Assembly (NCBI GenBank): GCA_905207905.1 | Contig: CAJLNC010000117.1 | Location: 1 to 5,414, forward strand | From: an uncultured Lachnospiraceae bacterium | GTDB taxonomy: Bacteria; Bacillota_A; Clostridia; Lachnospirales; Lachnospiraceae | Direction: 5' to 3' | Length of the DNA: 5,414 bases | Part shown: positions 1,465 to 4,987 of the stretch, in pieces | Position numbering within the stretch: position 1 is the stretch's first letter | Layout of the letters: each line of letters starts with the position of its first letter | Program-made: the position numbers and the translations under genes | Notes under the pieces: generated by a model | Told to the model about the DNA's origin: nothing | Databases searched by the model: none | What the model saw: only the letters and a program-made list of their open reading frames with translations

Positions 1465-1503
1465 CCCCTTTTGTTAGACAAAATATAAGTCTAGTGAAAG
1501 GGG
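1465..1503. repeat. Interrupted palindrome at the left IS end
   Basis: The arm CCCCTTTTGTTAGAC (1465-1479) faces GTCTAGTGAAAGGGG (1489-1503) around a nine-base A/T loop. The outer CCCCTTT/AAAGGGG and inner TAGAC/GTCTA helices are perfect and are separated by a small symmetrical internal loop. ATTTTT follows on the plus strand. In transcripts reading into the element this could act as a terminator-like hairpin limiting transposase expression, a behaviour known for several IS families. Confidence 0.65.
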
Positions 1504-1510
1504 ATTTTTC

Positions 1511-1636
1511 ATGTCATCAGGAAAAAAGATGTATTCGACAGAATTAAAAAAGGACAGATTGGAAAGATTGCTCCCAATCTTATCCAGCGTAATTTTAAAT
1601 CAGATAAACCAAATCAAAAATGGACGACTGATATAA
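1511..1636 (+). pseudogene. IS3-family orfA remnant
   Basis: The ATG at 1511 is preceded by AAAGGGG and opens a 41-codon frame. Its first residues (MSSGKKMYSTELKK) resemble the start of OrfA proteins of IS3-family elements, which normally run to about 90-170 residues with a helix-turn-helix. The homology fades after about residue 14, where the reading passes into DNA that codes for orfB in another frame. This marks an internal deletion that joined the start of orfA to the middle of orfB, out of frame. It is not expected to bind DNA. Confidence 0.5.
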
Positions 1637-1956
1637 CAGAATTTTCTTTATTTGGAACGAAACTGTATTTTTCTCCTATCCTTGATATGTTTAATGGTGG
1701 AATCATTCGTTATAACATAAGCGAACATCCAGTGCTGAACCAAGTACTGGATATGTTGGATAAGGCGTTTTTGAAGATTCCAGATAATATAAACCTTATT
1801 TTCCATTCCGGTCAAGGTTGGCAATATCAACACAAACAGTAGCAAAAAGGAATCCGGCAAAGTATGTCCAGAAAAGGGAACTGTCTGGATAATTCTATCA
1901 TGGAGAATTTCTTCGGGTTACTTAAATCAGAATTATTAAGAGAATGGTTGCTATAG
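1558..1956 (+). pseudogene. IS3-family transposase orfB remnant (DDE integrase core)
   Basis: Frame 1 reads IAPNLIQRNF, then [53 protein letters not shown] and LLKSELL, the ordered landmarks of the IS3-family DDE core. The first Asp is kept (codon 1630-1632) and the Glu is kept (codon 1903-1905). The second Asp, normally in HSDQGWQYQ, is Gly (GGT, 1810-1812). A TAG at 1840-1842 interrupts the frame where a Tyr is usual, about five residues are missing after it, and a second TAG lies at 1954-1956. Beyond this only faint similarity remains to about 1990. The start is missing. The gene is clearly inactive. Confidence 0.85.
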
Positions 1957-1990
1957 GATTGTAGGCTATATAAAGATAATTATTGGCGCT

Positions 1991-3301
1991 TCAAAACAGC
2001 CTTTCAATATTCTCCTGTACTTTCTGATTCAACTGAGCATACTGTTCTGCCTCCTCCCTGGAAAACCCTTCCAGTGCGGTTTGCCGGTAGGAGAGGGAGA
2101 TGGCGGAGAATTCCCGGAGAATCGGATCTGCCGCTGCCAGAAAAGTGACGGCAAACTCTCCGGTAGAACGCTTCGTTTCTGTTTTGATCAGACTCTTGTG
2201 GGTCAGACGCTGCAGGAGAGAGGACAGGGTGGAAAGAGAAATACCTGCAAAATCAGCCAGTTCTTTTCGGGTAATGCCGTGGTGAGGGTCGAACAAACAG
2301 AAAAGCAGCCAGACTTCCTGGGAGGTGAGACTGTTTTTCTGGGCGATGGGCTCCAGACAGTAATCCAGAAGCTTTCTGCTGCGGTAACAGTCTTTCAGGG
2401 GGCCTGGTCCCACAATGGCCTCCTTTGATACAAAACTTCGCTCTTCCCCCAGCTTTTTGGTACCGGGCAGGATGGAAGGGAGAACAACTCCGTCATTGGC
2501 AGCGTCAATGAGAAAACGATAGACTCGAAGCTGATTTTTTTCATAGTCTTTTTCTGTCAGCACATGTTTATAAAAATTGTTGTAGTACTCAAAGACTATA
2601 AGCTTCATTTTGATGGTCTGAGTAATGCTCATGCCCTGGTTGGCCAGAGAGCCCTTTGTATTGACATAATAGTAGAGCGGTACCGGCAAGACATAGAATG
2701 TCTTTGCATGGCGGATATATTCCAGGTTAAACATAAAATCTTCACACCAGCTGATGGCTGGATCCATTTTAAGCTGGTGCATTGCAATAATTTCCCTTCG
2801 GTACAGTTTATTCCAAAGCACCCCATAATAGAAATCTGCAGGGTTTTCCAGCATATAGGCGGCAAATTCTTCTGTGGTCAGCAGTCCCTCCTCATCAATA
2901 TTCCCCTTGTGGGAGACTCGTTTTCCGGAAACACGATAAAAATCACAGATGACCATATCGCACTGGCAGGTCAGGGCGGCATTGCTCAGCAAGCGCATAG
3001 CATTGGGAGTGATCCAGTCATCACTGTCTAAAAACTGTACATAGGTTCCCCTGGCAAGGCTGAGAGCCAGATTTCTGGAGGCAGATACGCCGGAATTTTC
3101 CTGGTGGATGACCCGGACTCTGGGATCTTTTTTTTCATAGCTGTCGCAGATCGCGCCGGAATTGTCGGTACTTCCGTCGTCTACGATCAGAAGCTCAAAA
3201 TCGGTATAATCCTGTTTTAAAACGCTGTCCAGGCAGCGGGCAATGGTCATTTCTGCATTATAAACAGGAATGATCATGGTGATCATGGGATTCGCAGTCA
3301 T
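1991..3301 (-). CDS. Family 2 glycosyltransferase fused to a C-terminal MarR-like winged-helix domain
   Basis: A 436-residue protein starting at ATG 3299-3301, which has AAAGGAG five bases upstream; the longer TTG start at 3364 lacks such a site. Residues 6 to about 210 form a GT-A glycosyltransferase of family GT2: MIIPVYNAE at the start, nucleotide-binding VDDGSTD (Asp41/Asp42), the metal-binding DSDD (92-95), and WCEDF (Glu187/Asp188) at the catalytic-base position. Such enzymes transfer a sugar from a nucleotide sugar to a surface polysaccharide or other acceptor. No membrane segment is evident. After a helical linker, residues about 315-436 look like a MarR-family unit: LTSQEVWLLF, recognition region RKELADFAGISLSTLSSLLQRL, a wing (TETKRSTGEFAVTF), then a C-terminal helix (GFSREEAEQYAQL) like the MarR dimerisation helix. 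The frame is continuous, so this is not a frameshift artefact. Acceptor, sugar and DNA target are unknown. The stop abuts the IS remnant. Confidence 0.9.
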   Translation of the reverse strand: MTANPMITMIIPVYNAEMTIARCLDSVLKQDYTDFELLIVDDGSTDNSGAICDSYEKKDPRVRVIHQENSGVSASRNLALSLARGTYVQFLDSDDWITPNAMRLLSNAALTCQCDMVICDFYRVSGKRVSHKGNIDEEGLLTTEEFAAYMLENPADFYYGVLWNKLYRREIIAMHQLKMDPAISWCEDFMFNLEYIRHAKTFYVLPVPLYYYVNTKGSLANQGMSITQTIKMKLIVFEYYNNFYKHVLTEKDYEKNQLRVYRFLIDAANDGVVLPSILPGTKKLGEERSFVSKEAIVGPGPLKDCYRSRKLLDYCLEPIAQKNSLTSQEVWLLFCLFDPHHGITRKELADFAGISLSTLSSLLQRLTHKSLIKTETKRSTGEFAVTFLAAADPILREFSAISLSYRQTALEGFSREEAEQYAQLNQKVQENIERLF

Positions 3302-3364
3302 AGATACTCCTTTATTTCCGCGGACAATGAGCCAAGCAGCCGCACTTGTGGGGAGATTTGGCAA

Positions 3365-3743: not shown

Positions 3744-3941
3744 AAAAAGACAGATACTGTTTAGGAGAAGAATAGTATCTAAGCGCCCGGACTTGTCAAA
3801 GTGGAGCAGGGAAGCGCCGGGAAAATGGGATAGGCTGGAAGAAAGCAGCCAGAGGGACCAAAGGATACCATATTACGAAAAAAGAGAATCCGTGCATAAG
3901 GCGTGAGGGTTCTTTTACACGGAGGATGCAGGAGGACAATT
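3744..3941 (+). promoter_or_regulatory. Structured 5' leader of ptsH, candidate cis-regulatory RNA
   Basis: The leader can form several helices. P1 pairs GTATCT (3775-3780) with GGATAC (3863-3868). It encloses P2, CCCGG (3786-3790) with CCGGG (3817-3821), extended by ACTT/AAGT (3791-3794/3799-3802) with a 14-base purine-rich bulge, and P3, GGCTG/CAGCC (3833-3837/3846-3850). Together these make a three-way junction. The 5' strand of P1 can instead pair with AGATACT (3752-3758) just upstream, forming a seven-base-pair hairpin, so two states exclude each other. A terminator-like hairpin follows (3882-3916). I could not match it to a riboswitch class I know (purine, TPP, SAM, cobalamin, lysine, FMN, c-di-GMP, T-box). 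It shows no coding frame. The structure is read by eye, without energy calculation. Confidence 0.45.
3882..3916 (+). terminator. Terminator-like hairpin (possible attenuator) before the ptsH ribosome site
   Basis: AAGAGAATCC (3882-3891) pairs over ten positions with GGGTTCTTTT (3907-3916), including three G-T wobbles. The interior can pair further (GTGC/GCGT around ATAAG). The T-tract is short and partly inside the stem, so it may be a weak or conditional terminator, or a stem controlling access to the nearby ribosome site at 3921-3935. Confidence 0.45.
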
Positions 3942-4199
3942 ATGAAAAAGTTTCAGTATGTGATAACCGATGCAATAGGACTTCACGCCCGTCCGGCTGG
4001 ACTTTTGGTGAAAGAGGCAAAGAAGTTTGAGAGCAGGATCCAGGTGGCAAAGGGGGAATGCTCTGCTGGGGCGGATCGGCTGATGGCATTGATGAGTCTT
4101 GGAGTCAAATGCGGGGATGTGGTGGAAGTGATCCTGGAAGGCCCGGATGAGGAACTGGCGCTGGAAACTATGAAAGAATTTTTTGAAAAAAATCTGTAA
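3942..4199 (+). CDS. ptsH: HPr, phosphocarrier protein of the PTS, lacking Ser46
   Basis: An 85-residue HPr, the usual length. HPr accepts phosphate from enzyme I on His15 and passes it to sugar-specific EIIA proteins in the cytoplasm. The active site is intact: GLHARPAG with His15 and Arg17. The second landmark, MSLG at 51-54, aligns without gaps with Bacillus HPr, but the residue at 46, where HPr kinase phosphorylates Ser, is Arg (ADRLMALMSLG). It is therefore not a Crh-type protein, which has the opposite change (no His15, Ser46 kept). The start chosen is ATG 3942, with GGAGG at 3931-3935 six bases upstream; a GTG at 3903 would add 13 residues unlike HPr and begins inside a hairpin. No ptsI is adjacent, and promoter and terminator flank it, so it looks monocistronic. 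A role in transport or as an auxiliary carrier is likely; classical HPr(Ser-P)/CcpA control through this copy is not expected. Confidence 0.93.
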   Translation: MKKFQYVITDAIGLHARPAGLLVKEAKKFESRIQVAKGECSAGADRLMALMSLGVKCGDVVEVILEGPDEELALETMKEFFEKNL

Positions 4200-4285: not shown

Positions 4286-4987
4286 ATGGCATTAAAAATA
4301 GAAACGTATTTTTTGACGAAGAATCGCTGCTATCAGCAGGCGATTCCTGGAGAAAAAAGAGGTATCCAGGTTCACAGCATCGGCACGCCGCAGGGAAATG
4401 CAAAAGCAGTGGCGGATTACTGGAATCAGCCCTCTGTCTCCGAGTGCGTCCATTATATTGTGGACTGCGAGAAAGAAGGGAAGGTTTTGTATACCTTGCC
4501 GGAGCCATACCGAAGCTGGGCAGATGCGGGATATGGAAACAGGCATCTGATCACCTTTGAGATCTGCGAAACCAACGCTATGCGGTATACTGATGGGGCA
4601 AAGTATGAGGTTTTAGACGAGAAGAAATTTAAAGAGGATATTCTGAGAGGGTATCGGGGGACAGTAGAACTGTGTACAAAAATTTGCAGGGAAAGAGGCT
4701 GGGATCCTATGAAGAAGCTGGATTCCGGCCTGTATTTGATTTCCAGCCACGACGAGGGAAGAATCGCAGGAGAATCTTCGGGACATGTGGATCCCACCCA
4801 TGTATGGTCCAGAATGGGGCTCTCCATGAATGGTTTTCGGCGGGAGGTGAAGGAAGCCCTGGAACAAGGGGAGAATCCGGAGAAAATATACTTTGTGCAG
4901 GCCGGGGCATTTTCTCAAAAATCCAATGCGGAGGAGTTGGTAAAGCGCCTTCATGAGGCTGGATTTGAGGCATTTATAAAGCATTGA
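4286..4987 (+). CDS. Endolysin-like N-acetylmuramoyl-L-alanine amidase (Amidase_2) with a half SPOR-like tail
   Basis: A 233-residue zinc amidase expected to cut the bond between N-acetylmuramic acid and L-alanine of the peptidoglycan stem peptide. Residues about 5-190 form the Amidase_2/PGRP fold: YFLTKNRCY and GIQVHSIG near the start with His30 as a zinc ligand, CVHYIVD, ITFEICET, and SSHDEGR (His155) with SGHVDPTHVW (Asp169 probably the third ligand). The layout resembles phage endolysins. Residues 201-233 (YFVQAGAFSQKSNAEEL to FEAFIKH) match the first beta-alpha-beta half of a SPOR domain, which binds denuded glycan strands; the second half is absent. There is no signal peptide or membrane segment, so the enzyme needs a holin, lysis or non-classical export to reach the wall. 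The start has GGAG at 4276-4279, six bases upstream. No phage genes are adjacent, so it may be a domesticated lysin. Sporulation or wall turnover are alternatives. Confidence 0.9.
   Translation: MALKIETYFLTKNRCYQQAIPGEKRGIQVHSIGTPQGNAKAVADYWNQPSVSECVHYIVDCEKEGKVLYTLPEPYRSWADAGYGNRHLITFEICETNAMRYTDGAKYEVLDEKKFKEDILRGYRGTVELCTKICRERGWDPMKKLDSGLYLISSHDEGRIAGESSGHVDPTHVWSRMGLSMNGFRREVKEALEQGENPEKIYFVQAGAFSQKSNAEELVKRLHEAGFEAFIKH

Follow-up and report, generated by a model that had tools for sequence, protein, structure and literature searches.

Only a few enzymes are known to double as direct transcription factors, and there is much to learn from them. BirA and PutA are described as enzymes that repress transcription themselves (PMC6978683), and GmaR from Listeria monocytogenes is described as both an O-GlcNAc transferase and the antirepressor of MogR (PMC9638930). 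Ligand-responsive regulators such as the MarR proteins are characterised as frequently autoregulatory, and they may lie divergent to their targets (PMC5487221). In the account given of the SCO3205-DNA structure, Arg81, Ser76 (recognition helix) and Arg60/Thr62 (helix 3) contact phosphates, Arg72, Ser73 and His77 contact bases, and a D-x-R motif in the wing puts an arginine into the minor groove (PMC3737563).

The stretch of DNA analysed here (5,414 nucleotides, called the window) carries a minus-strand gene that encodes a GT2 glycosyltransferase followed by a predicted MarR-type winged helix. Enzymes with a DNA-binding domain are a known kind of protein, and what is new in this case is the pairing of GT2 with MarR. 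At the level of titles and abstract openings, no description of a fusion of GT2 to MarR or to a uracil-DNA-glycosylase (UDG) domain was found in the literature.

Two domains in one reading frame

A single frame of 436 codons, open throughout 3301-1991 on the minus strand, codes for both domains (Table 1). A longer alternative begins with TTG at 3364, and the alignment of the relatives starts around the ATG region. The closest named relative is a protein of Parablautia sp. (P0003), with 84% across the alignment, which makes a member of the Lachnospiraceae the likely host. The two full-length relatives for which a source name is given are annotated as glycosyltransferase only.

Table 1. Coordinates of the fusion gene and its parts in the window, and of fusions on the same GT2 lineage at other loci.
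Feature	Location	Strand	Residues	Remarks
GT2-MarR fusion gene	1991..3301	-		436 aa; ATG at 3301, stop 1993-1991
Ribosome-binding-site-like AAAGGAG upstream of ATG	3307..3313	-		read in sequence
GT2 part	2477..3301	-	1-275	
VDDGSTD motif	3164..3184	-	40-46	D42, G43, S44, D46 invariant, n = 91 sequences
DSDD motif	3017..3028	-	92-95	D92, D94, D95 invariant, n = 91
CEDF motif	2735..2746	-	186-189	all four residues invariant, n = 91
Linker	2402..2476	-	276-300	from GT helices to MarR helix 1
MarR/SlyA-type winged-helix domain	1994..2401	-	301-436	predicted model and sequence profile
MarR helix 1	2336..2401	-	301-322	helix from predicted model
Predicted recognition helix	2198..2236	-	356-368	helix from predicted model; position variability
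Wing	2138..2191	-	371-388	two strands in predicted models; sequence comparison
GT2 + DNA-deoxyinosine-glycosylase-like	L149:4669-6039			PF03167 E 2.8e-11
GT2 + DNA-deoxyinosine-glycosylase-like	L150:3786-5681			PF03167 E 5e-9; then aminoacyl-tRNA editing domain
GT2 + DNA-deoxyinosine-glycosylase-like	L151:4953-6518			PF03167 E 1.5e-7
GT2 + PF03167	L087			cut piece

The sequence-only reading of this DNA had described one uninterrupted frame with a GT2 domain, its Asp motifs and a complete-looking MarR winged-helix unit, and both halves of that description were borne out. The protein matches the Pfam GT2 model with E 3e-38, agrees with both the GT2 sequence profile and the GT-A fold, and keeps the Asp-rich nucleotide/metal motifs, with D42, D92, D94, E187 and D188 invariant in 91 sequences. 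The GT2 half is predicted to be a cytosolic sugar transferase. Its nearest structures are the glycosyltransferases GalT1 (5hea), TarP, TarS, RmlT and K4CP, which work on glycans or wall polymers; the GT domain of GmaR is a weak match (PDB 22ao, E 3.2e-5).

The VIA-align structure list for the whole model contained GT matches only, which is why the MarR part was given a model and a structure search of its own. AlphaFold returned a full SlyA/MarR fold at pLDDT 92.8, with six helices and a winged helix-turn-helix (HTH), and SlyA was the best PDB match, with RovA also among the best (3qpt, 3q5f and 4aij, the last with DNA). The sequence profile matched SlyA with E 1.7e-10. With the window sequence alone, several Pfam winged-helix models matched at about residues 325-380, all under their cut-offs, and the NCBIfam SlyA match was weak (residues 310-435, 26 bits vs a cut-off of 120). 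Confidence in the whole model drops between the halves, to blocks of 55-76 across residues 211-290, and is low at 261-290. A search for stand-alone copies of the MarR part found 85 proteins, many of them from short contigs, so that solo genes look the same as fragments.

Distribution of the fusion and its sister fusions

Both domains were present in the same order in 80/80 kept relatives (the best 80 of 173, from GTDB genomes), a sample biased toward fusions because the scan was queried with peptides from both halves. A search with the GT part only (E <= 1e-60, in 397 sampled genomes of one family, MarR being called at >20 bits to the profile) found a relative in 57/397 genomes, and MarR was present in 41 of the 57. 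Among the others, a uracil-DNA-glycosylase domain was present in four (truncated by the end of the contig in one), a short HTH-like tail in three and an N-terminal GNAT domain in one, and eight had no added module. The GT part matched 5/391 genomes of a class-wide sample, two of the five with MarR. The pairing is conserved across Lachnospiraceae and Oscillospiraceae, in one copy in 24/26 distinct genomes checked and in two copies in the other 2/26. Because the two domains occur together in all 80 kept relatives and in 41/57 genomes found by the GT part, across many assemblies including isolates, an assembly artefact joining two genes, which the sequence-only reading had named as a possible undoing of the fusion, was ruled out.

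Phage or mobile-gene origin was also considered and rejected, as an IMG/VR scan confirmed no relative. One unannotated 4.3 kb record from human faeces, labelled 'Bacteriophage sp.', matches at 57% over 97%, and is perhaps bacterial DNA.

A tree of the GT parts (n=98: 46 of the first 80 loci, later loci minus seven same-genome duplicates, and the window) had every MarR carrier on the same side of a branch whose SH-aLRT was 100. The presence of MarR took two changes on this tree, one being the loss in L098, the single exception; as the tree is unrooted, gain of MarR cannot be distinguished from loss. In L098/L148 (genome G593), the GT2 part, at 66% identity, ends after ~300 residues, and no MarR follows downstream of it in any frame. 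MarR has been lost in this genome and the GT kept.

In a sister clade with 44-52% identity in the GT part, a UDG-type domain replaces MarR in the same place, and seven genomes of a sister clade lack any C-terminal module. A branch with support 93 sets the UDG carriers apart, and one with support 95 the carriers of the HTH-like tail. PF00535 and PF03167 occurred together in at least 105 proteins (105/120 among the matches listed, of 1758), in a search whose length rule leaves out stand-alone glycosylases, and at least three proteins among the matches listed (120 of 1758) bear the name DNA-deoxyinosine glycosylase. The tails of L084, L085 and L124 are short and HTH-like, with a weak Pfam HTH_23 match (E 0.008 in one of two scanned), and in L086:611-1999 a GNAT acetyltransferase stands N-terminal to a GT2 of the same lineage. 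DNA-related modules are therefore found on two clades of this GT2 lineage, or on three if the HTH-like tail is real.

The PF03167-type domain was also seen in other company among the 120 of 1758 matches listed, fused to a GNAT acetyltransferase in one (P0211) and to PF02583, which we take to be a CsoR-like metal repressor, in seven (P0228, P0231, P0233, P0234, P0236, P0237 and P0239).

Putative DNA-facing residues, upstream regions and neighbours

In MarR proteins it is the HTH and the wing that face the DNA. Lys or Arg was present in >=80% of 91 sequences at positions 345, 346, 365, 369, 373, 378 and 381, and such positions make up 7/45 of the HTH plus wing vs 1/48 of helices 5-6 (Fisher p 0.027), or vs 5/91 of the rest of the MarR domain (p 0.062). 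The two residues exchange at 346 (50/33 of 91), 365 (47/41), 369 (51/35) and 381 (41/33), the pattern expected if charge is selected. Six of these seven basic residues are present in the window protein, which has Gly at 381; it also has Leu at position 356, which is Arg in 56/81 sequences. Positions 357, 358 and 361 are among the most variable, with entropies of 2.6-3.0 (357 2.6, 361 3.0). The wing exceeds 16 residues in 59/91 sequences, some with long Lys-rich inserts, and its mean net charge is just +1.8. In MarR helix 1, Lys or Arg is kept at R307 in 89/91 sequences, at R309 in 90/91 and at K310 in 91/91.

When the contacts described for SCO3205 are transferred by motif spacing, the phosphate contacts would map to positions that are largely kept here (Arg81 to 365, Ser76 to 360, Arg60/Thr62 to 344-346), and the base contacts would map to 356 (Arg72), 357 (Ser73) and 361 (His77), the latter two variable. 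Kept backbone contacts together with drifting base readers fit a divergent or relaxed specificity; probably the lineages have come to differ in their DNA target, or else binding has little sequence specificity. The D-x-R motif, compared by eye, is absent from the wing of the window protein and of its aligned relatives. This motif is common in the MarR/SlyA family and does not define it.

The MarR half has been evolving at roughly three times the rate of the GT half, with a median omega of 0.49 vs 0.15 over 201 pairs (Nei-Gojobori, with dS partly near saturation and pairs that are non-independent). Omega stayed <1 in the MarR half among the 30 closest pairs.

Upstream regions were searched for k-mers, palindromes and columns anchored at the promoter-like -10. 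The set comprised 80 regions of <=300 bases, from 79 loci and the window; L069 was excluded because it has too little upstream sequence. No operator-like palindrome was shared across them, and the signals found were those of ribosome-binding sites and sigma-70-type promoters only. AAAGGAG was the commonest 7-mer (33/80 regions). The promoter score was reached in 48/80 regions vs 13/80 after one base shuffle, and the promoter-like pair often had TG ahead of the -10; the window's own upstream region scored low (7.0). An autoregulatory upstream palindrome is common in the MarR/SlyA family and not a defining trait. On these results autoregulation through an upstream operator, by which the protein would control its own gene, finds no support; a degenerate or distant site may have escaped the search.

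Clustering of the neighbours of 80 loci and the window found no family that keeps the same position in more than a handful of loci; the biggest family occurred in 15 loci, at scattered positions. Pfam assignments for 138 immediate neighbours (those >700 aa left out) gave mixed housekeeping functions, of which PrsW (7) and MutL (5) were the commonest. A function shared with an operon or neighbourhood was discarded, and a link to adjacent surface-polysaccharide genes found no conserved neighbourhood behind it. Since MarR-type regulators are described as often autoregulatory, and as regulators that may be divergent to their targets, the context here speaks against a local regulator.

Seven loci (L026, L029, L036, L042, L049, L055 and L070) have a gene of ~650-700 aa just upstream of the fusion in the same direction, probably mutL. 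In the window, an HPr-type phosphocarrier protein (3903-4199) and an amidase_2-SPOR protein (4286-4987) are encoded past a divergent intergenic stretch of ~600 bp, an arrangement that neighbour clustering did not find conserved among the relatives. The sequence at 1501-1960 (+) is a decayed transposase in which an integrase core (rve E 2.2e-12) is recognisable and a stop interrupts the frame; it ends shortly before the fusion gene's 3' end. Genes for tRNA-Val and tRNA-Met followed by a C-terminal phage-integrase fragment (-) occupy 945-1395, which is likely an old integration site.

A possible trigger enzyme and its comparison with known systems

Our preferred reading, to which we give somewhat less than an even chance, is that the fusion protein is a trigger enzyme, a sugar transferase whose MarR half would bind DNA away from its own gene. 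Fold and conserved charge are what suggest DNA binding elsewhere in the genome, and this is the best reading we can offer of them. We infer catalysis, dimerisation, DNA binding and coupling of the halves: the protein would dimerise via its MarR half, the dimer would bind DNA at sites distant from the gene, occupancy by sugar-nucleotide or acceptor would likely tune that binding, and the halves would be coupled perhaps via MarR helix 1, which lies next to the GT half and is, with one other, the best conserved of the helices in its domain. Conservation of the fusion, the MarR fold, the kept basic positions and the precedents of GmaR, PutA and BirA make this reading a tentative first choice. The weak p of 0.062, the window protein's Gly at 381 and Leu at 356, the missing D-x-R, the variable base readers, the fast MarR half, the loss in G593, the want of an operator or neighbouring target and the low model confidence between the halves count against it.

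The main rival, next after the trigger enzyme and possible if rather unlikely, is that the MarR fold oligomerises a cytosolic GT2 whose activity needs a dimer, or positions its acceptor, and no longer binds DNA. Helix 1, by analogy the dimerisation helix, is well conserved (entropy 1.21), while the recognition helix (1.92) and the wing (2.22) vary. Such a platform would also suit the faster evolution of the MarR half, the absent D-x-R, and the failure to find an operator in 80 upstream regions or target genes in the neighbour survey. TarS and TarP, which are structurally related GTs, carry C-terminal oligomerisation domains. However, helices 5 and 6, which MarR proteins also use to dimerise, vary as much as the recognition helix does (1.91-2.12 and 1.90), and the basic residues are kept on the HTH and wing, not on helices 5-6. 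The rapid change of the MarR half could also mean that it was fused by chance and at most aids folding or stability of a GT that works alone, as could the lineage that dropped MarR and the seven sister-clade genomes with no C-terminal module. We consider this quite unlikely, because MarR persists in 80/80 kept relatives and 41/57 genomes with no interrupting stops, its fold and basic positions are maintained, and omega is <1 among the closest pairs.

The UDG-type domain at the same place in the sister clade and the HTH-like tail in a second clade raise another idea, that MarR brings the enzyme to DNA and that DNA or a nucleoid-bound protein is glycosylated. This GT2 lineage of gut Clostridia would then be a family of DNA-directed glycosyltransferases in which one C-terminal junction has received MarR, a DNA-deoxyinosine glycosylase or else an HTH-like tail. 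Both the mechanism and the family seem improbable to us: the structurally closest GTs work on glycans or wall polymers, the HTH-like tail is weak, and no modified-base pathway was noticed among the mixed neighbours in the Pfam survey. Least probable is a regulator and glycosyltransferase of flagellin, for which GmaR, as a GT described as also controlling transcription (PMC9638930), and the weak match to its GT domain might speak. Flagellin was found in 8/41 GT2-MarR genomes vs 13/20 unmatched genomes (Fisher p 0.001; the 20 are the first unmatched genomes listed, and kinship is uncorrected), which disfavours a flagellar role, and the description of GmaR includes no MarR domain.

If the trigger-enzyme reading is true, the joining of a glycosyltransferase to a DNA-binding domain of its own would be new, and in common gut bacteria a single protein would link sugar chemistry to gene expression. 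Among glycosyltransferases the closest precedent is GmaR, a single protein that combines an N-terminal GT domain with control of genes, as would be the case here. GmaR is described with TPR, linker and antirepressor domains and works through its binding to the repressor MogR, whereas the window protein has a MarR winged helix instead, and no TPR or MogR-binding antirepressor domain was detected in it with Pfam at E up to 1. BirA and PutA, which combine an enzyme and a DNA-binding function in one polypeptide, would by analogy serve as a model for trigger-enzyme logic; they are unrelated enzymes (biotin ligase and proline dehydrogenase) with proven DNA binding. SlyA and RovA (3qpt, 3q5f, 4aij) resemble residues 301-436 in fold and sequence profile, yet SlyA stands alone, and the MarR unit of the window is fused behind a GT, has a wing without D-x-R and has no operator found upstream. 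The PDB titles of GalT1, TarP, TarS, RmlT and K4CP make no mention of a DNA-binding domain. The GT2-DNA-deoxyinosine glycosylase fusions of Clostridia (L149-L151) raise the directly testable question of why this GT accompanies DNA-related domains: they belong to the same GT2 lineage and carry their module at the same place, with a uracil-DNA-glycosylase-type domain where the window protein has MarR.
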